In this document: positions 4,148 through 38,688 of the stretch, one piece after another
Layout: every line of letters starts with the position of its first letter
Numbering within the stretch: position 1 is the stretch's first letter
Made by a program: the position numbers and the translations under genes
The notes under the pieces: generated by a model
The model's input: only the letters and a program-made list of their open reading frames with translations
Databases searched by the model: none
Told to the model about the DNA's origin: nothing
IMG/VR virus record: IMGVR_UViG_3300027749_000008
Location: 1 to 43,350 of that record
Direction: 5' to 3' (one strand)
DNA from: a virus
Length of the DNA: 43,350 nucleotides

Positions 4148-4378
4148 ATGTCTATTAAAAATGTAATTACTAGTAACAAACTTGTGTACATGCAAAATAA
4201 CGTTGTTGTATTTGCAATGTATTGCAGTGCAAGGTTTGCTGGAATAATGACAGAAACACCATCACCAACAATTATTGACATTACAAATAACACGCAAGGT
4301 ATAAAAGTCGGTTGGTCTTACGATTCTACAACGGGTACGTTCTCTGCCCCTGTATCGGTACTACCGCCAATCGCATAA
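4148..4378 (+). CDS. Small fibre-associated protein (paralogue of 5922-6152)
   Basis: A 76-residue protein with a good ribosome site (AAGGAGA at 4137-4143). Its C-terminal half, GIKVGWSYDSTTGTFSAPV, matches the pattern IVKGYVYDPIRNTFTEPV of the 76-residue product at 5922, and the upstream strands also line up, so the two are probably paralogues. The G-x-x-YD-x4-TF-x-x-P ending occurs in small proteins encoded beside phage tail fibres, which suggests a fibre component or assembly helper. This is inference from position and motif only. Confidence 0.7.
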   Translation: MSIKNVITSNKLVYMQNNVVVFAMYCSARFAGIMTETPSPTIIDITNNTQGIKVGWSYDSTTGTFSAPVSVLPPIA

Positions 4379-4386
4379 GGAACATA

Positions 4387-5055
4387 ATGATATATTCACC
4401 TGATAACAATTTTCTACTTATTAAAAATTTTAAAGTTGGCGGCACCTCTTTAGAAGTAACACTGTCACGTTTATTACCACAAAGCGCTATATGCACACCA
4501 ATCGGTCAGCCTTCGCACGTTGACCACATTGAAAGAAATTGGAAAACAAACGAATACGAATTGTCAAATCACACGTCCTATGGTCACGCAAAAACAGTAT
4601 TTGGTGACGATGTAATTAGCAATACCGTGTCAGCAGTTTTTGTTAGAAACCCTTACGAACAAGTCCTATCTTGGTTTTTTCACAAACTTGATGAGTACAA
4701 TTGGAAGTTTGATTGGAATGCCCTTACCAAAGAACAGCAGGAATCGTGGGTGGAAAAATTCTTTTCTGAGACAGACCCACGTTTTTGTATGTTAAAAAGT
4801 ACCAAGAGGTTATACACACAAGGCGATGAAAACCACATATCCGTTGGTCATGTCCTTCGTTACGAAAATGGTTTAGAAAGCGAAATAAATAAAGTCCTTG
4901 CTTTAGTTAATTTGCCTGAAATTATTGTGCCCTACCAAGAAAAAAATCTTAGGCCAAAAACGGTTAATTATTTTGACGTTTTCAAAGAAGAGCATTTAGA
5001 AAAAATTCAGGCTGAATGGTCTTGGGAATTTGAAACGTTTGACTACCAAAAGTAA
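4387..5055 (+). CDS. Sulfotransferase family protein
   Basis: A 222-residue protein; start ATG 4387 has AAGGA eight bases upstream. The two PAPS-binding signatures of sulfotransferases are visible. The 5'-phosphosulfate loop is K16-V-G-G-T-S21. The 3'-phosphate motif is V86-R87-N-P-Y-E-Q-V-L-S95-W-F. H44 or H47 and later acidic residues are possible catalytic bases. Size and motifs fit the carbohydrate/Sulfotransfer_2 group, which moves sulfate from PAPS to a hydroxyl on a glycan or, in related enzymes, a tyrosine. It lies between fibre genes and an APS-kinase-like gene that could make its donor. The acceptor is unknown; fibre tyrosines or host surface sugars are the obvious candidates. Confidence 0.85.
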   Translation: MIYSPDNNFLLIKNFKVGGTSLEVTLSRLLPQSAICTPIGQPSHVDHIERNWKTNEYELSNHTSYGHAKTVFGDDVISNTVSAVFVRNPYEQVLSWFFHKLDEYNWKFDWNALTKEQQESWVEKFFSETDPRFCMLKSTKRLYTQGDENHISVGHVLRYENGLESEINKVLALVNLPEIIVPYQEKNLRPKTVNYFDVFKEEHLEKIQAEWSWEFETFDYQK

Positions 5056-5057
5056 AA

Positions 5058-5639
5058 ATGAAATACGCAAGCCCTTCGGAGACACCAAAGAACTTTGAGC
5101 CTTTTAACTTTCGTTTTAAAGGCAACTTTGACGTTAGTAAAATTTCTGACTACCTGATGTCAAATGACATAGTTTGGGGCAGGGAACGAATTGGTATTCA
5201 TCATGCCGAAGCAAATCCATACTACATAAACAATGTCTCAGAGGATTGGAACATTGGTGACCCTTATGTATCTACCTATGTTTCTAAAGACGACAATCTC
5301 TGGTTCTTGATAGAGCCAATCATTAGTCATTTTGAAAAAGAGATTGGTGGCAAAATGGGCAAAGTTCTTTTTATACGTTTGCCTGAAGGTAAAGAAGTTT
5401 ATGGTCATTACGATTATGGCGACTATTTATCTTCTGTAAGAAGGCACCACTTGGCTATAGTAACTAACCCCAATGTTAAATTTAGTGTAGGTGGAGAAAC
5501 GATTAACATTAAGTCGGGTGAGTGCTGGGAGATAAACAACGTCAAATGGCATGAAGTTAAAAATTCTGGCGACTCAATGCGTATCCATTTGCTTTTTGAT
5601 ATAATGCCTAGTAAATACGTTGGGAGTGACAATGATTAG
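5058..5639 (+). CDS. Aspartyl/asparaginyl beta-hydroxylase-like 2-oxoglutarate dioxygenase
   Basis: A 193-residue protein beginning two bases after the sulfotransferase stop. The C-terminal half shows a double-stranded beta-helix iron site: H117-Y-D119, then H165 in VKWHEV, and an R175-I-H177 that fits the 2-oxoglutarate-binding Arg. The segment GECWEINNVKWHEVKNSG closely follows the Asp/Asn hydroxylase pattern of GE-W-n-x-x-H-x-V-x-N. Expected reaction: Fe(II)- and 2-oxoglutarate-dependent hydroxylation of a peptide side chain. Adjacent genes encode Asn-containing collagen-like fibres and a sulfotransferase, so fibre modification is an attractive role. A small-molecule or host target remains possible. 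Confidence 0.8.
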   Translation: MKYASPSETPKNFEPFNFRFKGNFDVSKISDYLMSNDIVWGRERIGIHHAEANPYYINNVSEDWNIGDPYVSTYVSKDDNLWFLIEPIISHFEKEIGGKMGKVLFIRLPEGKEVYGHYDYGDYLSSVRRHHLAIVTNPNVKFSVGGETINIKSGECWEINNVKWHEVKNSGDSMRIHLLFDIMPSKYVGSDND

Positions 5640-5925
5640 ACGAAACAAAGAACAACGATTCCCAGGTGGCAGAAAGTGGCACGCCACACACATACCACCT
5701 AAGAGAAAGCACAACGAACCAAGAACGTTTAAGTACCTTGAGACCATGGGCTTAGAACGTGTTTTTATAGAAAAAAACGACGATTACGATTTCTACGTTG
5801 TTTCAAAAGGGACACGACCAGATGATGTAAAGATTGTTGGCATCGCTGCAAACCTTAAAAGCGCAGTGATTTTGTCAAACCAAGAAGTAACAAACATTAA
5901 CAATAGTATCTTAGGAGAAACGTGA
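5632..5925 (+). CDS. Hypothetical protein, paralogue of 7032-7283
   Basis: The chosen start is ATG 5632, with GGGAG six bases upstream; TTG 5620 and GTG 5626 are possible alternatives. It gives 97 residues and overlaps the hydroxylase stop. The N-terminal 35 residues are very basic (RRNKEQRFPGGRKW, PPKRKHNEPR). The C-terminal 60 residues match the product of 7032-7283: VFIEKNDDYDFYVVSKG against VFIEKDKNYKVFVVSVG, and AVILSNQEVTNIN against AVILAKNVIGEIN. Function is unknown. Two copies in one cassette suggest a role linked to the modification enzymes or fibres. Confidence 0.7.
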   Translation: MIRRNKEQRFPGGRKWHATHIPPKRKHNEPRTFKYLETMGLERVFIEKNDDYDFYVVSKGTRPDDVKIVGIAANLKSAVILSNQEVTNINNSILGET

Positions 5926-6152
5926 CACTTCCAGACGACCCAAGCATAGAGATGAATCAGACCAACACGGTTGCTTTTATTTTAGACGGTAAAGTTGTTC
6001 AAGTTGACAAGGTAGGTGTTTACTATGCTGCAGTTCTTACAAGCGATGATGTAACTGTCATGAACGTTACACACATTGAAAATGCCGACAACATAGTAAA
6101 AGGGTATGTGTACGACCCAATTAGAAATACATTTACAGAGCCGGTTATCTAA
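5922..6152 (+). CDS. Small fibre-associated protein (paralogue of 4148-4378)
   Basis: A 76-residue protein starting at GTG 5922 with AGGAG upstream, overlapping the previous gene by 4 bp. It is beta-prone throughout and ends with NIVKGYVYDPIRNTFTEPVI, the same ending pattern as the 76-residue product at 4148. It probably belongs to the same fibre-linked family. No enzyme motif is present. Confidence 0.7.
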   Translation: MTLPDDPSIEMNQTNTVAFILDGKVVQVDKVGVYYAAVLTSDDVTVMNVTHIENADNIVKGYVYDPIRNTFTEPVI

Positions 6153-6368
6153 ATGGATAACGAACCAAAACCAACTCGACCATGGGACTTGCTTACAAAA
6201 GAACGTGTCAGCGATGAATTGGCTAACGAAAGATTTGCTATTTGCAAAAATTGCCCAAGGCTTCGTAAAAAAATTAACGTTTGCAAAGAGTGCCATTGTT
6301 TTATGCCAGAGAAGGTAAAGTTAGCATTGTCGTTCTGTCCACTAGGAAATTGGCAGCCGCATGTCTAA
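6153..6368 (+). CDS. Small Cys-rich zinc-binding protein
   Basis: A 71-residue protein starting directly after the previous stop. Cysteines are arranged as CKNCPRL, then CKECHCFM, then FCPLGNW, giving a likely zinc knuckle of four to six Cys. It resembles short Cys-rich proteins encoded in T4-like cyanophage tail regions (the DUF6171 type), but this is recognition from memory. Its place in the modification cassette suggests a shared function with its neighbours. Confidence 0.7.
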   Translation: MDNEPKPTRPWDLLTKERVSDELANERFAICKNCPRLRKKINVCKECHCFMPEKVKLALSFCPLGNWQPHV

Positions 6369-7035
6369 AGTTTTAAGGTTTGAAGCCTTACCAGGTACGT
6401 TAAAAAAAACCCTTGAACCAATGGTTAACGCTATCCCTGATTGGTATAGAGGGATTGAACGTTTCTACAATGCAGAGGGTGAGAATCACGCCTCAGTAAA
6501 ACACTGCATACCTTTCCTTGACGCTTTAACAACGGGCTATTACATCGCTCTAGGCAAGGACGTATACGTTACACAAACCCCATACGGTCCTTCTGTACGT
6601 TATGAAGATGTACCTTCTCCTGTAGGCAACAGAGCACCTGGTTCTACTGGAAAAATGCCAGTACCAGAAGGCTATGACGAAGAACATTTGGTTTGGCAAA
6701 CACAGGTTGCATTTACTTTACCAGAAGGATACAGCGCAGTTTTTACTCACCCACTAAATAGATTCGACCTTCCATTCATTACTCTTTCTGGTGTGGTTGA
6801 TGGTGAGATGAACGTTCACGGTGGCAACATTCCTTTTCACATTAAGAAAGGTTTTGAAGGTCTGATACCTGCTGGTACGCCAATCATTCAGATTATTCCT
6901 TTTCTTAGAGAAAACTGGGAGTCAAAACCAAAGAAAGGTCTTTGGAACGAAAGCCTTCTCAACGTGTCAACCGACGATTACAAAGAAGGGCGTTGGTATC
7001 TTCGACGTAAGCACCACAGAAAAAGTTACAAATGA
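6361..7035 (+). CDS. Conserved phage protein of unknown function (DUF6065-like)
   Basis: A 224-residue protein. Recognisable features are IPDWYRGIERF near the start, VKHCIPFLDALTTGYYI, a loop with HLVWQTQVAFTLPEGYSAVF, then FITLSGVVDGEMN and the PAGTPIIQIIPFLRENW strand. This order matches a family found in cyanophages and other environmental phages, probably DUF6065, with an all-beta core. No catalytic residues are known to me. It starts inside the end of the zinc-binding gene, so the two are translationally coupled. A fibre-associated or surface role is a guess from position. Confidence 0.7.
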   Translation: MSKVLRFEALPGTLKKTLEPMVNAIPDWYRGIERFYNAEGENHASVKHCIPFLDALTTGYYIALGKDVYVTQTPYGPSVRYEDVPSPVGNRAPGSTGKMPVPEGYDEEHLVWQTQVAFTLPEGYSAVFTHPLNRFDLPFITLSGVVDGEMNVHGGNIPFHIKKGFEGLIPAGTPIIQIIPFLRENWESKPKKGLWNESLLNVSTDDYKEGRWYLRRKHHRKSYK

Positions 7036-7283
7036 AAATGCAATACATGGTTGTTCCCGATAAGCCAAACAGGGTTATGTTTTACTTTCAATCAAATAGC
7101 GACTTTAAGGTTTTTATAGAAAAAGATAAAAATTACAAAGTCTTTGTTGTCTCTGTTGGCCTAAACCCAAAGATGTTGAGGTCGTATGCTGTCGTAGAAA
7201 AATTCAAAGATGCAGTTATTTTGGCCAAGAACGTTATTGGCGAAATTAACGATGCACGTAACTTTGCTACGGAGACAAAATGA
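7032..7283 (+). CDS. Hypothetical protein, paralogue of 5632-5925
   Basis: An 83-residue protein, start ATG 7032 overlapping the previous stop (ATGA). The motif VFIEKDKNYKVFVVSVG and the helix AVILAKNVIGEIN reproduce those of the 5632-5925 product. It lacks that protein's basic N-terminal extension. The duplicate flanks the 5922-7035 genes, so the cassette may have grown by internal duplication. Confidence 0.7.
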   Translation: MKMQYMVVPDKPNRVMFYFQSNSDFKVFIEKDKNYKVFVVSVGLNPKMLRSYAVVEKFKDAVILAKNVIGEINDARNFATETK

Positions 7284-7699
7284 TTATACAAATAATTGGA
7301 CTACCAGGCTCGGGCAAGACAACGCTTGCCAGAAAACTATCTGAGCACCTTGCGGCTATTCATTTAAACGCAGATGAAGTAAGAGATTTTGTTAACTATG
7401 ATTTGGGTTTCAGCCACCTTGACAGGATTGAACACGCACGCCGACTTGGTGGCATGGCTCGTTTGTTCCAGGAGAAGGGGTTTCACGTGGTGGTAGATTT
7501 TGTTTGCCCAACATCTGATACCAGAAAAGCCTTTGGTAGTGCTGACGTAGTTGTGTTTATGGACAGGATTCAAGAAGGCCGTTACAAGGACACCAACCTC
7601 CTATGGCAGCGACCTGAGAATCCCGACGTTGTAATTCCTGATGGTCTGACCTTAGAGCAGGAAATTGAAGTTACGTTGGCCTTTTTAGGCAAATGGTAA
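7280..7699 (+). CDS. Adenylylsulfate (APS) kinase-like P-loop kinase
   Basis: A 139-residue protein. The P-loop is G7-L-P-G-S-G-K-T-T15. The segment L29-N-A-D-E-V-R35 followed by N39-Y-D-L-G-F-S45-x-x-D-R49-x-E-x-x-R-R55 follows the APS-kinase pattern (L-D-G-D-x-V-R, L-N-x-D-L-G-F-S, D-R-x-E, R-R). APS kinases phosphorylate adenylylsulfate to PAPS, the donor for sulfotransferases such as the one at 4387-5055. The protein is shorter than typical enzymes (about 200 residues) and diverged after FVCPTSDTRK, so substrate change is possible. No ATP sulfurylase is encoded, so APS would come from the host. Confidence 0.8.
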   Translation: MIIQIIGLPGSGKTTLARKLSEHLAAIHLNADEVRDFVNYDLGFSHLDRIEHARRLGGMARLFQEKGFHVVVDFVCPTSDTRKAFGSADVVVFMDRIQEGRYKDTNLLWQRPENPDVVIPDGLTLEQEIEVTLAFLGKW

Positions 7700-11339: not shown

Positions 11340-12359
11340 ATGGCTTTAACATTCCCAGCACGCTCATACGCAGGAGCAGCATCGGCAGGTACCCTTACTG
11401 CTGCTATTAGTTCCGGCTCTACAACCTTTGCATCCAGCACCGCGCTGACTGGTTGGGTTGACATCACAGGTGGTACCTTCTCAGGACGATGTGTAATTGC
11501 ATTTGGGTATGGTACTGCTGCCGAAGAAAAGATTCTTTGTACGTACAGTACATCAACAGGTAACTTTACAATCATCACTCGTGGCTACGATGGTACTTCA
11601 AGCCCAGCCGGTGGTTGGCCTGTTGGAACAACTTTTAATCTTGTATGGTCTGCAACCGAAGCAGCAGAAGCAGCAGCAGCAGTACAAAACACAGTTAAGC
11701 AAATAACTGCAGCAGGTGACATTTTGTACGGTACTGGTGCAAATACTATGACACGTTTGCCAATTGGTTCTACTGGTCAGGCTCTTATTTCTAACGGTTC
11801 AACGCCATACTGGTCTTCAGTTGTTGGTGCTCAGGGTGCTCAAGGTTCTCCTGGTACACAAGGTGCTAATGGAACGAACGGCACACAAGGTGCTCAAGGT
11901 GCCCAGGGTGCGCAAGGTTCTAGCACTGGTACACAAGGAACTCAGGGTTATCAGGGTGTTCAAGGATACCAAGGATACCAAGGAGTTGCAGGTGGTGGTG
12001 GCGTAGGAATGTTTGGTAGTACGTCTACAAGCGTAACCGTTAACAACTCACCTAGTATTATTCTTACACTTAACGTAAGTGGTTACACAAAGTATGTTAT
12101 TAACTGGACAGCGTATTGTACTAACGCAAGTGGTGCAACTGTTGCTTACAATTTTAGTCTTTATGCAGGCGGAAGTGCTACAGGAGAAGCAGACTATCAA
12201 ACAACAGTAAACGGTGCTTCTACTACTGCTGCAATGACCTACTTCTACAACGCAGGTACAACTGCTACTCAAACCATTAACATTTACTGTACAACAAACT
12301 CATCCGGTAGCAATCAAAATGTCTACGACCAATCAATAAGTGTAATTGGTTCTAACTAA
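11340..12359 (+). CDS. Second collagen-like tail fibre protein
   Basis: A 339-residue protein with an AGAAAGG ribosome site. Residues 1-160 form a beta-rich N-terminal domain (FPARSYAGAASAGTLTAAI, ILCTYSTSTGNFTIITRGYDG) typical of phage baseplate/fibre anchors. A short Gly-X-Gln collagen stretch spans about residues 163-218 (GAQGSPGTQGANG, GYQGVQGYQGYQGVAG). The C-terminal 115 residues are beta-rich and Asn/Ser/Thr-rich, as expected for a receptor-binding head. It is followed within three bases by a tail-collar protein, so the two may build one adsorption apparatus. Confidence 0.85.
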   Translation: MALTFPARSYAGAASAGTLTAAISSGSTTFASSTALTGWVDITGGTFSGRCVIAFGYGTAAEEKILCTYSTSTGNFTIITRGYDGTSSPAGGWPVGTTFNLVWSATEAAEAAAAVQNTVKQITAAGDILYGTGANTMTRLPIGSTGQALISNGSTPYWSSVVGAQGAQGSPGTQGANGTNGTQGAQGAQGAQGSSTGTQGTQGYQGVQGYQGYQGVAGGGGVGMFGSTSTSVTVNNSPSIILTLNVSGYTKYVINWTAYCTNASGATVAYNFSLYAGGSATGEADYQTTVNGASTTAAMTYFYNAGTTATQTINIYCTTNSSGSNQNVYDQSISVIGSN

Positions 12360-15306: not shown

Positions 15307-15524
15307 TGCTGTGGACCTGGTCATGGATACTAGCCTTTGTGGGTTCATTTGGTTTGTTTACTGTAGGTAGCAAGATACGTTGGGGCTGGTTTGTCCTTAT
15401 TTGCAACGAGTTCCTATGGGTAATCTACGCCCTGCAATCTAAACAATACGGATTTATTCTGTACAGTTTCCTGTACGTGGTTATGTACATCCGTGCTATG
15501 TTCAAGTGGGATGAAAATGATTAG
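15306..15524 (+). CDS. Small three-helix membrane protein, PnuC-like fragment
   Basis: A 72-residue protein sharing one base with the phosphoesterase stop. Three hydrophobic helices are visible (WSWILAFVGSFGLFTVG; WFVLICNEFLWVIYALQ; GFILYSFLYVVMYIR). The spacing of W, N-E-x-x-W and Q-x-G resembles the second half of PnuC nicotinamide-riboside-type transporters, as in other small phage proteins. At 72 residues it cannot be a full transporter by itself, but could oligomerise. The next gene begins inside its last codons. Confidence 0.65.
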   Translation: MLWTWSWILAFVGSFGLFTVGSKIRWGWFVLICNEFLWVIYALQSKQYGFILYSFLYVVMYIRAMFKWDEND

Positions 15525-16746
15525 CGTATTCACGCCAAGCCACGACCCTAAGTACTTAAACCAGTGCTACCGTTCGCTTAACGAGCAGACCAATAACAAC
15601 TGGGAATGGATAGTCCTCCTTAACGGCGATGCCGACTGGGACCCACCTAAGGACGCAAGGGTTGTGGTGTACTACTCTGTGGCAGAGGGCGTGGGTGCTT
15701 TGAAACGTGAAGCCGTATCATACTGCACAGGTGACGTGTACCTGGAACTTGACCACGACGACATACTTATGCCTAACGCACTCATGGAAATTGAGTACGT
15801 TTTTGATAAGTTTACTGATGTCGGGTTTGTATACTCTGACACAGCCCAAATCCTTGAAGATGGCAAGGCTGACCTAGTCCCACCTTTTGGAGCAGAGTAC
15901 GGGTGGAAGTACTACAACGAGGAAGGTTACGTTGGGGCCTTGGCTTTTGAAGATTACCCCCACAACGTGTCTTACATCTGGTTCGCACCGAATCACCTAC
16001 GTGCCTTCAGGAGTGCCCTATACGCCGAAATAGAGGGGTATAAGGCCAACCTAGAGGTACTGGACGACCAAGACATTATGACCCAGTTGTACCAGACAGA
16101 GACTAAGTTCTACCACATCCCTGAGATTCTGTACCTTCAACGTGTGCACTCTAACAACACTCAGTCAGTAAGAAATGCGGAAATTCAGACTGGCACAGTC
16201 AACATGTATTACCAGACTATCGAGAAGAACTGCCTAGCATGGGCTAACCGTGAGGGTCTGTTGGCACTTGACCTTGGTGCACACCACAACAAAGCCGAAG
16301 GATTCCTAGGTGTAGACCTACGACCTGGTCCTGGCGTTGACTACGTGGGTGACATCTTTGACATGGACATTGCCGACAACAGCGTTGGTGTTATCCGTGC
16401 CTACGACTTCATGGAGCACATCGCCAACAAGACAGCCTTCATGGAGTGGTGCTACGACAAGTTAGCCCACGGTGGCATGTTGCTCTCTATGACACCAAGC
16501 AGTGATGGACGTGGTGCTTTTCAAGACCCAACACACATTGCCTTTTGGAACGAGAACTCGTTCTGGTACTACACCGACAAGCACTACGCAGACTTCATTG
16601 ACTTCGAGTGTAGGTTTCAGCAGTCTGCATTGCGTAGTTTCTTTCCAAGCGATTGGCACATAGAGAACCACATACCGTACGTGCAAGCCAACCTTATTGC
16701 GGTTAAGGAAAAAACCCACGACTTCGGTGGAGTACTGAGTATTTGA
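15511..16746 (+). CDS. Glycosyltransferase family 2 fused to SAM-dependent methyltransferase
   Basis: ATG 15511 gives 411 residues; ATG 15517 or 15493 are possible. Residues 3-230 are a GT-A glycosyltransferase: SVFTPSHDPKYLNQCYRSL, WEWIVLLNGD, and the DXD-type D81-H-D-D84. Residues about 245-400 are a class I methyltransferase: L253-D-L-G256-x-x-H, GVDLRPGPGVDYVGD, MEHIANKTAFMEW and HGGMLLSMTPSSD. The fusion would add a sugar and methylate it or a neighbour. Candidates are host surface glycans (superinfection exclusion), phage fibres or phage DNA. The order phosphoesterase, membrane protein, GT-MTase suggests surface glycan work. Confidence 0.85.
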   Translation: MKMISVFTPSHDPKYLNQCYRSLNEQTNNNWEWIVLLNGDADWDPPKDARVVVYYSVAEGVGALKREAVSYCTGDVYLELDHDDILMPNALMEIEYVFDKFTDVGFVYSDTAQILEDGKADLVPPFGAEYGWKYYNEEGYVGALAFEDYPHNVSYIWFAPNHLRAFRSALYAEIEGYKANLEVLDDQDIMTQLYQTETKFYHIPEILYLQRVHSNNTQSVRNAEIQTGTVNMYYQTIEKNCLAWANREGLLALDLGAHHNKAEGFLGVDLRPGPGVDYVGDIFDMDIADNSVGVIRAYDFMEHIANKTAFMEWCYDKLAHGGMLLSMTPSSDGRGAFQDPTHIAFWNENSFWYYTDKHYADFIDFECRFQQSALRSFFPSDWHIENHIPYVQANLIAVKEKTHDFGGVLSI

Positions 16747-21498: not shown

Positions 21499-21855
21499 AT
21501 GAGTACGACCATTATTGGTAGATTGACAGCAGACCCCGAGATTAAGTTCACTAACAACGGCACAGCCCTTGTGAACTTCTCGGTAGCAGTAAACCGTAAG
21601 AAGGGTGACGAAGAATACGTCTCCTATTTTGATGTAACAGCATGGGGCACACTTGCACAGGGTGTTGCCGACACACTTCACAAAGGTGACCGAGTTGTGG
21701 TAAATGGGTTTCTAACCCAAGACCGTTACGAGAACAAGGAAGGTAAGACGGTGAGCAAGGTAGTTCTAACTGCCGAAGCCGTTGGTCCTGACCTTCGATT
21801 CGCAACGGCCACAGTACACGCTACTAAGAAGAAAGAAGTTGAAGCAGACTTCTAA
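21499..21855 (+). CDS. ssb: Single-stranded DNA-binding protein
   Basis: A 118-residue OB-fold protein: TIIGRLTADPEIKFTNNGTAL, FSVAVNRKKG, YVSYFDVTAWGTLAQ, LHKGDRVVVNGFLTQDRYE and KVVLTAEAVGPDLRFA are in the order of bacterial SSB. The tail is short and ends VEADF, an acidic-Phe end like the partner-binding tip of SSB. It coats single strands made during replication and ERF-mediated recombination. The next gene starts at its last base. Confidence 0.95.
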   Translation: MSTTIIGRLTADPEIKFTNNGTALVNFSVAVNRKKGDEEYVSYFDVTAWGTLAQGVADTLHKGDRVVVNGFLTQDRYENKEGKTVSKVVLTAEAVGPDLRFATATVHATKKKEVEADF

Positions 21856-22241
21856 TGGCTGATTGGTCCGAGGCGAAGTGTATTGGTATGACCAAACTTT
21901 TCTTCGACGACCGCATAAAAAAAATTAACCGAGCGAAGTACATTTGCAAGGAGTGCCCACTTAAGAACGAGTGTCTTGAGTGGGCACTTGTGCATAGAGA
22001 AGCGTGGGGAGTATGGGCTGGTCTTGACTACCACGAACTTCGTATCGTTGCCGTCTCATTGGGCTATGCGCCCCCTAACAGACGTGAGGTGGAGCATGGC
22101 ACCGAACGTGGCTGGGCGTGGCACAGAAGGCAGAAAATGAAGGACACAGAGCACGAGACGTGCCAGCCTTGCGTTGACGCATACAACCAAGCCACCCGTA
22201 TCCGAGTAGCCCGTTACCGCAAAAGAAAAAGTTCGACTTGA
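21855..22241 (+). CDS. WhiB-family regulator with C-terminal CxxC basic extension (second)
   Basis: A 128-residue protein. WhiB Cys ligands are C9, C31, C34 and C40 (AKCIGM, YICKECPLKNEC), with the turn GVWAGLD and the helix YHELRIVAVSLG. Residues 75-128 extend the usual phage WhiB length with a basic stretch (TERGWAWHRRQKMKD), CQPC, and an Arg/Lys-rich end (IRVARYRKRK). The extension might bind zinc and DNA. It is directly followed by a very strong promoter. Confidence 0.88.
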   Translation: MADWSEAKCIGMTKLFFDDRIKKINRAKYICKECPLKNECLEWALVHREAWGVWAGLDYHELRIVAVSLGYAPPNRREVEHGTERGWAWHRRQKMKDTEHETCQPCVDAYNQATRIRVARYRKRKSST

Positions 22242-31921: not shown

Positions 31922-32341
31922 ATGCCACGTTCAGGTAAAGGCGGTTCACGCCAAGGAACACCCGGTACTGCTTACAGCAACCGTACAGATTTGAATGTTC
32001 CTAAAACTACTGTACCCAATCAAGAGTACGGTAAGGCAACAGAACAGATGAACGCACAATCAGCAATACCAATGGCACAGTCACCTGTTGCTCAAGGTGC
32101 CGCTCCTGCACAACAAACTGCTGGCCCAATGCCAGGTTCGCTGCCATTCCTTCACCCGACAGAGCGACCAACTGAACCAATTCAAGCGGGTATCACTTCT
32201 GGCCCTGGACCTGGACCTGAAGCCATTGCACCACAGCCAAGAGGTATTCTTTCTGAAGCATTGCGTCACATGTCTAACGACCCTAACGCTACTGCTGGAA
32301 CATTTGACCTTGCTGCTCACGCTCGCTTGTTTGGTATGTAA
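31922..32341 (+). CDS. Pro/Gln-rich small structural-region protein
   Basis: A 139-residue low-complexity protein (RSGKGGSRQGTPGTAYSNRT; QSPVAQGAAPAQQTAGP) with an ordered C terminus (GILSEALRHMSN, AGTFDLAAHARLFGM). It lies between portal and the giant gene and overlaps the latter by one base. It may be a scaffold-like or portal-associated protein. No family is recognised. Confidence 0.7.
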   Translation: MPRSGKGGSRQGTPGTAYSNRTDLNVPKTTVPNQEYGKATEQMNAQSAIPMAQSPVAQGAAPAQQTAGPMPGSLPFLHPTERPTEPIQAGITSGPGPGPEAIAPQPRGILSEALRHMSNDPNATAGTFDLAAHARLFGM

Positions 32342-35300
32342 TGGCTGACGGAAACCAGAACCCACAAGGCCAAGTACCGGTACCACAACAACCAGTTGCA
32401 CCTGCACCTATAAAAGTAGGTCGAGGTATTCCTGGTGGAGGTCAAGCACAGCAAACATACAATGAACAACAGAACGCTTACCAAAAAGCAATAACAACTA
32501 ATTCCTACAATTCTTTAAACCAGAATCAGCACTACGCTCTTCAATCTATTTACAACAACTACCCAAGTGCGTTTAAAAACCCTGGGATGATAATGGACCT
32601 TGTTAAGAATACTGGACCTATGCAAGGTGTTCATATTCAAGACGCAACAAACGCTCTTAAGTTTATGGCCTTGTATGACAAATTTAATTCTACATGGTAT
32701 ACAGGACAAAACCCAACTGGAGCCACTGGTCAGATTTGGAATGCGGCTAAAGCGGGTTGGAGTGGTTTAACTACACTCAAGAACTGGAAAAACGTTGGTC
32801 CTGAAATTGTTAACCTTGGTACCCACACTTGGGACAACTTTCATAACTACATTACAAACGGTGTACACAAATACGGTCTTGGTGGTTTCTTTACACACGA
32901 AGGTTCTGTTTACGGTAAATCTTTTGTTAGTGCAGCCGGTGGTCTTGCCAAGGGCATTGGTGGTCTTGTAGAGCGTGCTGGTAAAAGCATTATGGAATTA
33001 AATGGTTTTGGTGGTGTAGCAGGTTATGAAGACCTTGGCAAAACACTTCTTAACCTTGGTCAAAACTTTAACCCATGGAGCGACAAAAACGCTTATCAAA
33101 TGACTGCACACGTTTTGGCTTACTACGAAAGTATGGTTAAGCAAAAAGGTATTATGTATGCCTTGGGTAACATTGGACCAAGTCTTGCACTTATAGGTGC
33201 AACTGCAGGTGCTGGTTCTGCTGCAGTTGCCGGATTTGACGCTACTGCTGCTGCTGAAGCGGCTGCTACTGCTGCAGAAGAAGCAGCAATGGCAACTGAA
33301 ACTGGTGCTGCAGGCTTTGACATGGCTACTACTGCTGCTAACGCTACAAAAGAAATTGAAGCGGCTAATGCGGCACAAGCAACACAAGCAAGCAAAGTTT
33401 TTACAATCATGCAAAAACTTAGCGAACACGGCAATCCTCTTGGTTACATGTACCGTGGTGCTAAAGGATTTACAAAAATGACTGGTGGTGCTAGAGCCAA
33501 TGCTTTGTACCAGTTAGTACAAGCGCAAGCAAAGCACAGTGATGCTAAATTGTGGCAACAAACTGGTGACCTTGGCGTACACGATGCTAACGGTAAACCA
33601 GTTGACCTTGGTAGGGCAACAATGGAGTTCTTTGCTGGCAAACAAGACCAAGGTGTTTTCTTTTCTGCCTCTTCAGGCATTGTTGACCTTTGGGCAAAGT
33701 TTATTGGTACCGACCCTGTTGGTGCTTTAGGTACAAAGATTTCTTCAGCACGTACCGTAGGTCTTGCGCCACGTCTTGCTAGAAGGTTGGACGAGTTTAG
33801 CCACACTGCTGAACTTGCTGTAGAGCGACAAACCAAACTAGGTAAACTAATTGAAAAGGGTGGCGGCTCACAAACGCTTGGAAACCTATCTGTATATTTT
33901 AAGGGCCTTGGTGTTACTAGTGGTGACACGCTTCGTCAATTAGCAGTACGACCATACGTTCGTCGTGCTCTTACATTTATGGCTACTCACAACAGTGGTG
34001 AGATTGGAACTATGTTTAAGGCTGGAAAGCAAAGTAACACTTTCTCTCCTTACGTCTTAAAACAATTGGGAGACGCTAAGACAGAAGAAGAAGTTCTAAA
34101 CATTCTTGCTCCTTTGGCTGATGGTCAAGGTCTTGCTCTTGTACATGCACCTTCAATGGGCATGTACTCATGGATGAGACAAACTGCTGCTGACAGCATT
34201 CTTAGCAAGCAATCACTTCTCTCTGCTGACATTTCTATTATCAACCGATGGAAGAATACTAAATGGTCTAAAGACGGTCCAGACGTTAAAGTTGACGACC
34301 CTATTTGGGTAGGTGTTGTCGACGCAGGTCTTCGTGCTCGTTCTTCATTCCGTCTTTGGGTTGCAAAGCAATTGGCCGGAAAACCTATGTACTACTCAAG
34401 TGTGCTTAAGGGATTTGAAACCGACCGAATTATTATGGAAGATGCTAACGAGTCTATTCCAGCAATTAGGCAACTTGCTATTGGTGCAATGATGCCAAGA
34501 GAAGTTGTTAACGCAATGACTGACTACTTGACTCAGGCATTGGCTGACGGAGGAACCGAAGCGTTTTCTCAAGCATACCGTGAAGTTGTTTACCACATGG
34601 TTATGCGTCGTGCTGTATCTGGACTCAACCGTGCAGAGTACGACCTAGTTGCTAAAGACCTTGAAGGCAGCATTCAAGAAGAGATTTACCGCATGTTGGG
34701 TTTTGACGGTGGTTCAGTTAAGGCTCACTATGGTGCCAACGGCGCAAGTGACATTGGAAACATTGAAGACATGGAAGACATCAAAGGTATTAATTCTCAC
34801 GCTGCCATTGTTGACTCACAGTTGTCTGACATGAAGATTCCACAAGTACGTGACCTTAACAACCTAAGTACTTTTATTAACGAAACCATCATTCGTATGA
34901 CCAACCAAATTGGCAACCTTCACGACATCAATCTGTCTGAAGACACCGTCCGTGCCCTTGCTTTGGACAAAGGTCTTGAAGTTAGTCACACCAACAAATG
35001 GCATGACCCTATTCACGAAATGCGTCTTAACAGAGACACTAACGCTGCTCACGTTTCTGGTCTTACTGCAGGACGAAAGCAAGTAACAGACGCAATTAAA
35101 GAAATCATGGAAGGCCCAGGCAAGCCTCACGAAAAGTTTGCTGCTGCCTACAAAAAAGTTGCTGAGATACAAAAGAGCGCTGACCTTAAAGTTAAGGAAG
35201 AGACACGGTTCCTTGACGACAGTTATGTCAATGCTAACGAACCTGTTGCTAAAGACCTTACCAAAGCAGGCAACACTTCTACTAGACAAAACGTAGATTA

Positions 35301-38300
35301 TTTTAGAGGTGTACTAAACGCTGCTCACGACCAAATGATGTCGTTTAATGTTCTTATGCTTCGTGACCCAGGTATGGGTAGCGACGTTAAGAGATTGTTC
35401 AGCATAAAGCGTTTGAACAAAATTGGCGAATCAAAATTGACACCAGAAGAATGGGCTGTTTCTCGTGCTGGTATTAAGTACGATGCAAACGAAGAAAAGA
35501 TTCAAGCCCAATTTGTAAAAGAGATTACTGCTCAACGAGGAACACGCTCTGGCCTTAGAACTAACTGGCAAGTTATCGTTGATGGAATGAACCGAAGCCT
35601 TAGCCTTGTGTTCGTTCCACTTGCTCTTCTTTCAGGACGATGGGCAATGCACGTTGGTGTTTCTGAAGCAACGCTAAACGCATTACGTGTTGGTGGCTTT
35701 AACTTGTTTGATGCTCGCCTTGCTGCTTCTATTGTTCGTCACGAAAATCAAACTGCTGTTCTTATGGGAAGGCTAAAGCAACAGGGTGATTTAAAATCAA
35801 TTACTGCTGACCTTGCCAAAAATGTTTTCCACCAAGACTACAAGGGTGCTAGCAAATCAGCAACAACTTTGTTAAGTCACAACCGTATTCTTATTCGTAA
35901 CGTTACTGCTGGTGTTCTTACTGGTATTGAAAAGAGCATGATTAAGGGTTGGGACTCAGAGAAATTGGGTCGCCTTGTAGAAGACACTGCTGGCGTTATT
36001 ATGCGTCACTCTGGTCACCTTCCACTTGGTGTTCACGCACAGAACGACGTTTCAATAACCGACCCGTTTTCTGGTTTGCAAGGTGAAATTACAGACGTTT
36101 ACCGTGTTGACGCTGCTAATCGTTTGGTTAAGACAAAAGCATCTGTAGGTGACCACCACACATACAACAACCTTCACGACCACGGTTACGCAAGGTCAAT
36201 GGTTCAGCAGATGGTAAGACTTGTTGATGACAAACTTTCGTTTGCTGCTAGCAAGAGACTTAGGGAACTCATAGAAGAACCAACTATTTCTGGAATGTTT
36301 GGTGTTAAAAAGGGTTCACTTGAATGGTTCAACGAAACTCGAGTGCGACTGTCTGAAGAAGTTTACAAAGACGTTCTTCAGATGAAGCCTGCAGAACTTT
36401 CTAGGTACCGTGCATCTGAATTAGTTATCTCTGACCCTAAGTTATCTGCATGGTCCTTGGACATGCGTGAGGCTATTAAAGACAAAGGCCCTGACGCTTT
36501 GGTGCCTGGACGTGAAGCAGAAGGTATCACCTATGAAATGGCATTCAAAGAAGCAGCGTTAAAAGACTTTGCTACTCGTACGGCAACCAACGTACTTAAC
36601 ACCGTAACTGGAACCAGCAGTAACAAGTGGCGACTTCACACTGACCTGCTTGACATGATTATCCACAACCAGATACCTACTGAAAAAGAAATGAACGCCA
36701 TCTTAGGTGATAAAAAACTTTACGCACCAAAGGACATACCTGGCCGAGAAGTTAATGCCGCCAATTGGACAACTGCTGCTTCGTACAAGAACTTTGTACG
36801 TCGTCTTTCTGAAGTAGGTCACGAAAAGGTTCTTGGACCAATTGTTAACTGGATGGTACGTGACCCGTTGTTTGCTCTTGAGTACCACAACCAAATGGAA
36901 CTTGCTCGTGAGTTGATTAAGGCTCGTCAACTAAACGTTGACAACGCAGAGGTATGGGCAGAGAACCAGGCTATTCAACGAATGATTCGTTTTGTTCACA
37001 ACCCTAAAGACAAGACATTCTTTGAAGCCAACATGCGTGTTGCTGCTCCGTTTTATTTTGCTCAAAACCAGGCATGGCGACGTGCATTCCGTATGGGTGC
37101 CGTAGACATGGGGGCATTTGAAAAATATCTAAAGATGTCTCTTGGTGTTACTAACTACGTAGCAATTCAAAACCAAGCAGGAACATCACCAAAGATGGTT
37201 ATCCCAGGCACACAGTGGTTAGGTGGAATGTTTGGTCTTGACTTTAACCTTACAGGTGGCCCAGGTTCAGTTAACTCAATGGTGCCTACGGGTGACATGG
37301 GTGGAATCATGGGAACCCTAGGAACAATTGTTCGTCCTGCATTTGGACCTTACGTTACAACGCCGCTCAAACTTCTTAAGGACCTAAAGTTCCCACACGA
37401 AGAATGGGCTAACAACATTGTTAAGAACATTATTGGTGAGTACGCCAACAACTCTACAATGCAGCAGAACCTTTTGCCTTCTTCAACACTAAACGGCATG
37501 CTACAAATTATGGACGACGTGGTCTTTAAAAACCACAACGGTACTGTTGCCTCAGTTGAAAATCAAATTATTACTGACTTGTCCGAGCAGATGCACAAGA
37601 AGTTTAGAGACGAAGTTGAGTCTTACCTAAGCAGAAGTGACAAGTGGAATAGTTACGATAAGGGTACAAGAGAGCACCTTATTAAGAGTGTGTCTAACAC
37701 ATTATTTGCTAACTGGACTGCTGACAATGCTGCACAGGCCAAGTTCTTAGAAGAGGCTCACTCTAAGGCAGTGATGATGATTGCCACAAAGACTATCCTT
37801 AACTTCTTTAGTCCTCTTGCCCTTTCTCTTAACGCCACATACTCTGGCCTTGGAGACCTAGACAAGATTATGGCTGAAAAGAATAAGGACGGCACACCTA
37901 AGTACACGGCCTACGAAGCCATGGACGAATACAACAAGAGACACCCGAACAACATCTACGACCTTACGGCTCACACATCAAGTCCTTACGGTCACTTTGA
38001 CGAAACAAAATTTACGTTTGATTTTGTTGAACAGAACATGGGCTTTGTCAACAAGTACAAGTATGCATCAGCAATGATTCCTGACCGCACTTCACCACAA
38101 GACGCACATGCCGCTTCGTTGGAAATGCGCCTTGGTCTTCGTGCACGTATGACTCCAGATGAGATGATTGTTCAACGTGACATTACAACTGGTAACGATT
38201 GGTACTACAACGACGCACGTTTCTACATGCTTCAGAACCCAATGTATTCGTACGATGGCAAAACGCTTAACGGCGAAGGAATCAAAGTAATGGGCGACAT

Positions 38301-38688
38301 GGCTAAAGGTTACGGTAAATTAAACCCTAGTTGGTACGCTTCTTTTAAGGGTGAAGAAAAAAACAGCAACGCTCTTAAGGTCTACGACGAAATGAACAAG
38401 ATGTTGCAAGACCCTGAAGTTCTTGGCCCATTAAATGGTAAAGGTGGGAAAATTATTATTCCTCCTGAGCAGTACATGCAATTTGTTGCTTTAAACAAAA
38501 TTTACGATGCTAGTGCATCACAAATTAATGCAGAGTACAAGGTTAACCCTTCTGCTGCTTCTGAGATGCAAAACAGATTGTACGAAACACTTCTTGCTGT
38601 TTCCAAATTAAAAGAATTTTCATTAGCGTCGTACTACATTACTTCGTGTCTTTTGAAGATGCCTACCGTATTCGTACCTGCAAGATAA
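32341..38688 (+). CDS. Giant 2115-residue internal virion protein (probable)
   Basis: At 6.3 kb it takes 15 percent of the genome. Residues 1-110 start Gln/Pro-rich and then helical. Residues about 278-300 are hydrophobic (IGPSLALIGATAGAGSAAV) and lead into an Ala/Glu-rich helix to about 345. A second hydrophobic stretch is near 1086-1103 (SLSLVFVPLALLSGRW). Most of the rest is long charged helices with few Cys. No protease, lysozyme or ADP-ribosyltransferase motif is visible. Size, helicity and place between portal and capsid fit an ejected internal virion protein that helps DNA cross the envelope, as T7 gp16 does. This is inference from architecture. Confidence 0.65.
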   Translation: MADGNQNPQGQVPVPQQPVAPAPIKVGRGIPGGGQAQQTYNEQQNAYQKAITTNSYNSLNQNQHYALQSIYNNYPSAFKNPGMIMDLVKNTGPMQGVHIQDATNALKFMALYDKFNSTWYTGQNPTGATGQIWNAAKAGWSGLTTLKNWKNVGPEIVNLGTHTWDNFHNYITNGVHKYGLGGFFTHEGSVYGKSFVSAAGGLAKGIGGLVERAGKSIMELNGFGGVAGYEDLGKTLLNLGQNFNPWSDKNAYQMTAHVLAYYESMVKQKGIMYALGNIGPSLALIGATAGAGSAAVAGFDATAAAEAAATAAEEAAMATETGAAGFDMATTAANATKEIEAANAAQATQASKVFTIMQKLSEHGNPLGYMYRGAKGFTKMTGGARANALYQLVQAQAKHSDAKLWQQTGDLGVHDANGKPVDLGRATMEFFAGKQDQGVFFSASSGIVDLWAKFIGTDPVGALGTKISSARTVGLAPRLARRLDEFSHTAELAVERQTKLGKLIEKGGGSQTLGNLSVYFKGLGVTSGDTLRQLAVRPYVRRALTFMATHNSGEIGTMFKAGKQSNTFSPYVLKQLGDAKTEEEVLNILAPLADGQGLALVHAPSMGMYSWMRQTAADSILSKQSLLSADISIINRWKNTKWSKDGPDVKVDDPIWVGVVDAGLRARSSFRLWVAKQLAGKPMYYSSVLKGFETDRIIMEDANESIPAIRQLAIGAMMPREVVNAMTDYLTQALADGGTEAFSQAYREVVYHMVMRRAVSGLNRAEYDLVAKDLEGSIQEEIYRMLGFDGGSVKAHYGANGASDIGNIEDMEDIKGINSHAAIVDSQLSDMKIPQVRDLNNLSTFINETIIRMTNQIGNLHDINLSEDTVRALALDKGLEVSHTNKWHDPIHEMRLNRDTNAAHVSGLTAGRKQVTDAIKEIMEGPGKPHEKFAAAYKKVAEIQKSADLKVKEETRFLDDSYVNANEPVAKDLTKAGNTSTRQNVDYFRGVLNAAHDQMMSFNVLMLRDPGMGSDVKRLFSIKRLNKIGESKLTPEEWAVSRAGIKYDANEEKIQAQFVKEITAQRGTRSGLRTNWQVIVDGMNRSLSLVFVPLALLSGRWAMHVGVSEATLNALRVGGFNLFDARLAASIVRHENQTAVLMGRLKQQGDLKSITADLAKNVFHQDYKGASKSATTLLSHNRILIRNVTAGVLTGIEKSMIKGWDSEKLGRLVEDTAGVIMRHSGHLPLGVHAQNDVSITDPFSGLQGEITDVYRVDAANRLVKTKASVGDHHTYNNLHDHGYARSMVQQMVRLVDDKLSFAASKRLRELIEEPTISGMFGVKKGSLEWFNETRVRLSEEVYKDVLQMKPAELSRYRASELVISDPKLSAWSLDMREAIKDKGPDALVPGREAEGITYEMAFKEAALKDFATRTATNVLNTVTGTSSNKWRLHTDLLDMIIHNQIPTEKEMNAILGDKKLYAPKDIPGREVNAANWTTAASYKNFVRRLSEVGHEKVLGPIVNWMVRDPLFALEYHNQMELARELIKARQLNVDNAEVWAENQAIQRMIRFVHNPKDKTFFEANMRVAAPFYFAQNQAWRRAFRMGAVDMGAFEKYLKMSLGVTNYVAIQNQAGTSPKMVIPGTQWLGGMFGLDFNLTGGPGSVNSMVPTGDMGGIMGTLGTIVRPAFGPYVTTPLKLLKDLKFPHEEWANNIVKNIIGEYANNSTMQQNLLPSSTLNGMLQIMDDVVFKNHNGTVASVENQIITDLSEQMHKKFRDEVESYLSRSDKWNSYDKGTREHLIKSVSNTLFANWTADNAAQAKFLEEAHSKAVMMIATKTILNFFSPLALSLNATYSGLGDLDKIMAEKNKDGTPKYTAYEAMDEYNKRHPNNIYDLTAHTSSPYGHFDETKFTFDFVEQNMGFVNKYKYASAMIPDRTSPQDAHAASLEMRLGLRARMTPDEMIVQRDITTGNDWYYNDARFYMLQNPMYSYDGKTLNGEGIKVMGDMAKGYGKLNPSWYASFKGEEKNSNALKVYDEMNKMLQDPEVLGPLNGKGGKIIIPPEQYMQFVALNKIYDASASQINAEYKVNPSAASEMQNRLYETLLAVSKLKEFSLASYYITSCLLKMPTVFVPAR

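Follow-up and report, generated by a model that had tools for sequence, protein, structure and literature searches.

Does a freshwater phage carry its own enzymes for sulfating a molecule, and if so, what would that molecule be? The question arises from the genes at positions 4387-7699 of the record IMGVR_UViG_3300027749_000008, a freshwater virus of bacteria, which we analysed over its whole stretch of 43,350 nucleotides (the window). A first-pass annotation of this DNA had proposed that one cassette holds a sulfotransferase (4387-5055; product P0001) and an adenosine-5'-phosphosulfate (APS)-kinase-like enzyme (7280-7699; product P0002), and that the latter makes the donor 3'-phosphoadenosine-5'-phosphosulfate (PAPS) for the former. 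Both open reading frames (ORFs) are present at these positions. We estimate a probability of roughly 60% that this run of genes contains a phage sulfation module, the acceptor being probably a fibre or the host surface.

The product of 4387-5055 is, by homology, a genuine PAPS-type sulfotransferase, for which the corresponding activity is predicted. The family PF03567 (Sulfotransfer_2) covered P0001 from residue 2 to residue 221 and scored 38 bits, where the curated cut-off is 22. Both PAPS-binding signatures recognised in the first-pass annotation were confirmed, namely the 5'-phosphosulfate-binding (5'-PSB) loop K16-V-G-G-T-S21 and the 3'-phosphate-binding (3'-PB) motif R87-N-P...S95, and K16, H62, R87, P89 and S95 were invariant when 39 phage homologues were aligned. 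A profile of homologues matched the SULT enzymes in the PDB (E 5e-8), and in the profile alignment to the PDB entry 5x2b, H62 was paired with the SULT histidine that we take to be the catalytic base. The AlphaFold (AF2) model, built with the 39 phage homologues, had a predicted local distance difference test score (pLDDT) of 94.2, and the first 27 among the Foldseek matches listed from the PDB were sulfotransferases, with probabilities of up to 0.97. No class-A sulfotransferase, the class to which P0001 belongs, was found in the INPHARED phages.

By its sequence, P0002 is an APS-kinase-like P-loop kinase, and APS is its predicted substrate. PF01583 (APS_kinase) reached 59.6 bits (cut-off 21.1), covering profile positions 4-91 of 152 only, and every motif named earlier was recovered (the P-loop GLPGSGKT, LNADEVR, NYDLGFS, DRIE and RR). 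Like the match of PF03567 to P0001, it lies far above chance. APS kinases were the top matches by Pfam, by PDB sequence and by PDB profile comparison. The roles of the APS-site residues are known from APS-kinase structures; R35, F44 and R49 were kept in 51/51 distinct relatives, R54/R55 in 50/51 and the APS-site aspartate in 50-51 of the 51. The fold was computed on a relative fused to another domain (locus L018), which belongs to the same alignment (A4) as P0002, and all 50 PDB matches listed for it were APS kinases, with E-values from 5e-9. A shikimate or polynucleotide kinase identity was also considered for P0002. Wherever these families matched, they were weaker than APS kinase, and no rival P-loop family surpassed it in Pfam, NCBIfam, PDB sequence or PDB structure comparisons.

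A third enzyme gene, absent from the first-pass annotation, stands directly 3' of the sulfotransferase gene. Its product matched PF05118 (Asp_Arg_Hydrox) with 57 bits against a cut-off of 22.6, and the residues of metal- and 2-oxoglutarate-binding type, H117xD119, H165 and R175, were invariant among its relatives (alignment A3). This hydroxylase gene is followed by small ORFs, the phrog_7084 gene and then the kinase gene, all on the + strand and separated by overlaps or short gaps. The view of a single cassette was thus correct as regards the same-strand run; the two genes originally named are, however, not adjacent, and the hydroxylase between them had been overlooked.

We examined the neighbourhoods of these genes in IMG/VR, where the kinase has at least 575 matching relatives. 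The locus samples consisted of the best-scoring matches, at most 80, without dereplication by species. We observed the following. Of the 80 kinase-seeded 20-kb loci, 31 carried a sulfotransferase of class A, B or C no more than 10 kb from the kinase; in 31/31 the distance was at most 3 kb and the two genes shared a strand. From the other side, the kinase was found within 3 kb in 16/17 loci seeded with class-A sulfotransferases; after removal of close relatives, the figures were 11/13 for class A and 23/56 for class B. The hydroxylase was an even more constant neighbour of the sulfotransferase than the kinase was. Standalone kinases, the one of the window included, had a sulfotransferase nearby in 8 of 9 distinct cases. 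In an island-matched control, seeded with phrog_7084 (at least 577 relatives in IMG/VR), a sulfotransferase was present in 5/10 loci with the kinase (two of these ten being the same phage) vs 5/69 loci without it (Fisher p 0.002). The first-pass annotation had allowed that the two genes might never occur together in related phages; the pair, in fact, recurs.

Cassette genes that stand next to each other mostly overlap or touch: the junctions of 60 bp or less led mainly from sulfotransferase to hydroxylase (48) and from hydroxylase to kinase (37), followed by hydroxylase to sulfotransferase and sulfotransferase to kinase (13 each). The gene orders varied (sulfotransferase-hydroxylase-kinase, hydroxylase-sulfotransferase-kinase, sulfotransferase-kinase and sulfotransferase-kinase-hydroxylase), and the sulfotransferase slot was filled by unrelated subfamilies (A, B, C, D and Sulfotransfer_1/3). 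Such shuffling of the order and swapping of sulfotransferase subfamilies would be expected of a linkage that is based on function and not merely inherited. What recurs in IMG/VR, in many further lake phages, is a shuffled, often overlapping cassette of three gene types. In locus L208 the three genes stand alone between two collagen-like fibre genes, in the order fibre, sulfotransferase, kinase, hydroxylase, fibre, and in L010 and L016 fibre repeats lie beside the cassette.

The setting differs in larger phages, where lysin-like and Trp_halogenase genes, and not collagen fibres, are the neighbours. A tryptophan-halogenase family gene was seen downstream of the cassette at L031 7365-8918 (PF04820 E 2.4e-100) and L041 11207-12760. 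These larger phages also have a further sulfotransferase of class-C-like type (L104 19534-20274 and its relatives), which in most cases follows the kinase at a distance of 8-9 kb and which Pfam did not detect. Separately, a class-D sulfotransferase gene overlaps a hydroxylase gene in kinase-free loci (L339 3467-5441 and L356 3514-5470).

We propose that the APS-kinase-like enzyme would convert APS, supplied by the host in the case of the standalone form, to PAPS, from which the sulfotransferase would transfer sulfate to a hydroxyl of an acceptor made during infection. The 2-oxoglutarate hydroxylase may act on the same acceptor or acceptor class, possibly creating the hydroxyl. Because the cassette sits between fibre genes, the acceptor would most likely be fibre proteins, collagen-like or other, or else a polymer on the surface of the host. 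The first-pass annotation had likewise named fibres or host glycans; the location among fibre genes was confirmed, and the acceptor is still a guess from that location. A fuller version of the proposal appears quite unlikely to us. It is a complete phage protein-sulfation system in which a hydroxylase would place hydroxyls on the collagen-like tail fibres and interchangeable sulfotransferases would then sulfate these. The PAPS would come either from the kinase with host APS or from a miniature PAPS synthetase, the kinase being fused to a small HxGH nucleotidyltransferase that serves as the ATP sulfurylase. Virions would thereby receive a post-translational modification in the manner of collagen, which would tune host recognition.

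The fusions in question are common. Most of the close kinase relatives are ~252 aa long and end in an HxGH...ISAT nucleotidyltransferase domain (e.g. L031 6370-7128 and L018 6447-7202); the kinase of the window is standalone, and the window encodes no nucleotidyltransferase domain of this kind. The nucleotidyltransferase domain of the fusions (HxGH/ISxT) matches CTP_transf_like, and its nearest PDB entry is a nicotinamide mononucleotide (NMN) adenylyltransferase. The commonest neighbour is a DUF2061 membrane protein, usually encoded after the fusion gene (40/51 distinct loci). DUF2061 was considered as a marker of a sulfur pathway and then dropped, as the kinase profile found nothing within ~1.5 kb of DUF2061 in 30 Pseudomonadota loci. 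In the Stenotrophomonas phage Bhz60 (L273 5553-6729) the fusion directly follows a NADAR-domain gene. A role of the fusion in NAD salvage appears less likely, as nicotinamide phosphoribosyltransferase occurred in 0/26 records, but the adjoining NADAR gene of Bhz60 keeps it under consideration. A cellular fusion, from one Pseudomonadota genome (L275/L283), adjoins a gene that by eye resembles an AMP-dependent synthetase, and no sulfotransferase was recognised by eye at that locus.

Several of the observations weigh against a sulfation module. The APS-kinase lid segment RDxKGLYxKAR...F is deleted in the kinase, and an aromatic residue and a DTN motif alone remain of it; across the 51 distinct relatives, Asn stands where DGDN has its first Asp, and the Asn of the EN motif has given way to Gln or His. 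The apsK equivalog model of NCBIfam, TIGR00455, was missed (59.7 vs 138.7 bits). As the lid is missing and this cut-off is missed, we infer the substrate of the kinase and its role as supplier of PAPS; of the earlier statement that the second enzyme makes the donor for the first, the family assignment stands and the donor synthesis becomes conditional. On the sulfotransferase side, the Foldseek E-values were modest (best 8e-3), and many class-B sulfotransferases occur with the hydroxylase or with nothing, without a kinase. Distinct kinase loci whose flanks were intact numbered 32; in 16 of them a sulfotransferase was within 5 kb (classes D and E included), and none was detected in the other 16. 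The fraction is a lower bound, because contig ends and limited sensitivity hide partners, and in L085 a sulfotransferase is present outside the class models used in the count. The kinase loci that have no sulfotransferase nearby are mostly fusions, and two isolated Stenotrophomonas phages have the fusion with no annotated sulfotransferase nearby. The acceptor is indicated by gene position alone. The deleted lid, the missed apsK cut-off and the fusions without sulfotransferases fit a less likely alternative, that kinases of the P0002 type act on some other small molecule (nucleoside, sugar or nucleotide analogue) in a different modification or nucleotide pathway, while the sulfotransferase uses host PAPS and has become a neighbour through accessory islands. 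Campylobacter Cj1415, presumably an APS-kinase-like kinase for another small molecule, would be a precedent, and the best PDB match of the second domain of the fusions, which is NMN adenylyltransferase and not ATP sulfurylase, the NADAR gene of Bhz60 and the synthetase-like gene beside the cellular fusion point the same way. Given these neighbours and the lack of sulfotransferases beside them, the fused lineage may have another job than sulfation. Opposed to this alternative are the strict proximity, strand bias, varied order and repeated replacement of the sulfotransferase subfamily, the enrichment of sulfotransferases over the island-matched control, the conserved APS-site residues and the 0/26 count of nicotinamide phosphoribosyltransferase among the kinase records.

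The sulfation module has also to be weighed against sulfate assimilation, as which viral cysC genes from freshwater and the deep sea have been published (PMC10914622, PMC9529941). The kinase would then boost the assimilation of the host (APS to PAPS to sulfite to cysteine), with the sulfotransferase being incidental, and a PAPS reductase encoded by the host could still serve such a route. However, PAPS reductase was found in 0/50 kinase-bearing viral records and none was found in the window, which argues against assimilation, and sulfotransferases are common beside the kinase. Cellular standalone kinase homologues are found near Sulfotransfer_3 genes in the Pelagibacteraceae loci L252 and L256, and in L253 a second APS_kinase gene adjoins the homologue; all three resemble polysaccharide clusters by eye. 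As PAPS reductase is absent and Sulfotransfer_3 genes lie near the Pelagibacteraceae kinases, we favour a supply of PAPS to sulfotransferases over assimilation, which we hold to be very improbable. The same polysaccharide-like cellular loci bear on a variant that is compatible with the sulfation module, in which the sulfotransferase and hydroxylase target a polymer on the host surface or some small molecule that is secreted, and not the fibres, for superinfection exclusion or receptor masking. The setting of the cassette in the larger phages and the presence of a glycosyltransferase in the window agree with it, but the cassette has collagen-like fibre genes around it in the window as well as in L010, L016 and L208, and we entertain this variant only tentatively.

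The features of the window that bear on the sulfation module are listed in Table 1. The two collagen-like fibre genes flank the run that contains the cassette. No Pfam match was obtained for the 284-aa product between the upstream one and the cassette; genes for its homologues stand before the cassette in L001 and L025 also.

Table 1. Genes in and around the proposed sulfation cassette of the window
Feature	Coordinates	Strand	Matches and remarks
Collagen-like tail fibre gene, 799 aa	885..3284	+	PF01391 Collagen E 4.3e-76, 8 stretches; upstream neighbour, candidate acceptor
Fibre or tail-like protein, 284 aa	3284..4138	+	phmmer homologues in 18 loci
Sulfotransferase, class A, 222 aa (P0001)	4387..5055	+	PF03567 Sulfotransfer_2 E 2.6e-9
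Asp/Asn beta-hydroxylase-like 2-oxoglutarate/Fe(II) dioxygenase	5058..5639	+	PF05118 E 2.7e-15
phrog_7084 protein	6361..7035	+	PHROG E 1.4e-29; frequent in the same islands
APS-kinase-like P-loop kinase, 139 aa (P0002), standalone	7280..7699	+	PF01583 E 4.6e-16; phrog_10255 'kinase' E 3.1e-30
Second collagen-like fibre gene, downstream	11340..12359	+	phrog_5073 and phrog_366 tail fiber; GxxG repeats 11826-12008

Two small ORFs, 4148-4378 and 5922-6152, bracket the sulfotransferase and hydroxylase genes and by eye appear to encode related fibre-associated proteins. Elsewhere in the window, one 417-aa ORF (15493-16746) has a glycosyltransferase family 2 domain and, after it, a region that resembles methyltransferases, and a single 2115-aa ORF (32341-38688) presumably encodes a large virion protein.

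A WhiB-like transcription factor is encoded at 21855-22241 (PF02467 E 2.4e-15). Since WhiB-like proteins were described as an indicator of actinophages in the work on Nanopelagicales phages (PMC10202952), its presence suggests that the host is a freshwater actinobacterium. The same phages have a variable island with tail fibre and collagen-like proteins that was tied to host recognition (PMC10202952) and is similar in kind to the site of the present cassette. With the WhiB-like gene and an island of this kind, one would naturally guess that the acceptor is the fibre or the cell surface.

As a rule, cysC-like genes of viruses are assigned to sulfate assimilation. The linkage described here suggests instead that sulfation of some molecule, perhaps of the fibres, is carried out by many freshwater phages. 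If this is true, sulfation and hydroxylation would be further means for phages to diversify the chemistry of their receptor binding or surface, and the linkage gives a concrete set of enzymes and candidate acceptors.

No description of the cassette was found in the open-access literature searched, and each of its parts can be compared with a known system. With APS kinase (CysC; the APS-kinase domain of PAPS synthetase; PF01583), P0002 shares the fold, the P-loop, the motifs (D/N)xDxxR and NxDLGFSxxDRxE..RR and an aromatic residue before a C-terminal P. It differs from it in being 139 aa long and lidless, in having NADE for DGDN, EQ or EH for EN and DFVCP for FISP, and in falling below the apsK cut-off. 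With Sulfotransfer_2 (PF03567) and the cytosolic SULTs, P0001 shares the Lys loop of the 5'-PSB, the Arg..Ser of the 3'-PB, the His aligned with the base and the fold; compared with the solved members it is short and weakly similar. Mimivirus L230, which we take to be a collagen lysyl hydroxylase-glucosyltransferase, would be a virus enzyme that both hydroxylates and decorates collagen-like proteins. It differs from the cassette in belonging to a eukaryotic virus, in glycosylating rather than sulfating and in its hydroxylase family. The viral cysC reports (PMC10914622, PMC9529941) have in common with the present work the APS-kinase-like genes of freshwater and marine phages; their main text has no sulfotransferase, whereas here a sulfotransferase and a hydroxylase are neighbours and no PAPS reductase accompanies them. 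In OM43 phages, sulfotransferase family genes were reported with a function stated to be unclear, and, unlike in the present cassette, no paired kinase or hydroxylase is mentioned (PMC10580990). The enzyme families of the cassette are known; its combination of genes, its lidless kinase and its setting are new.

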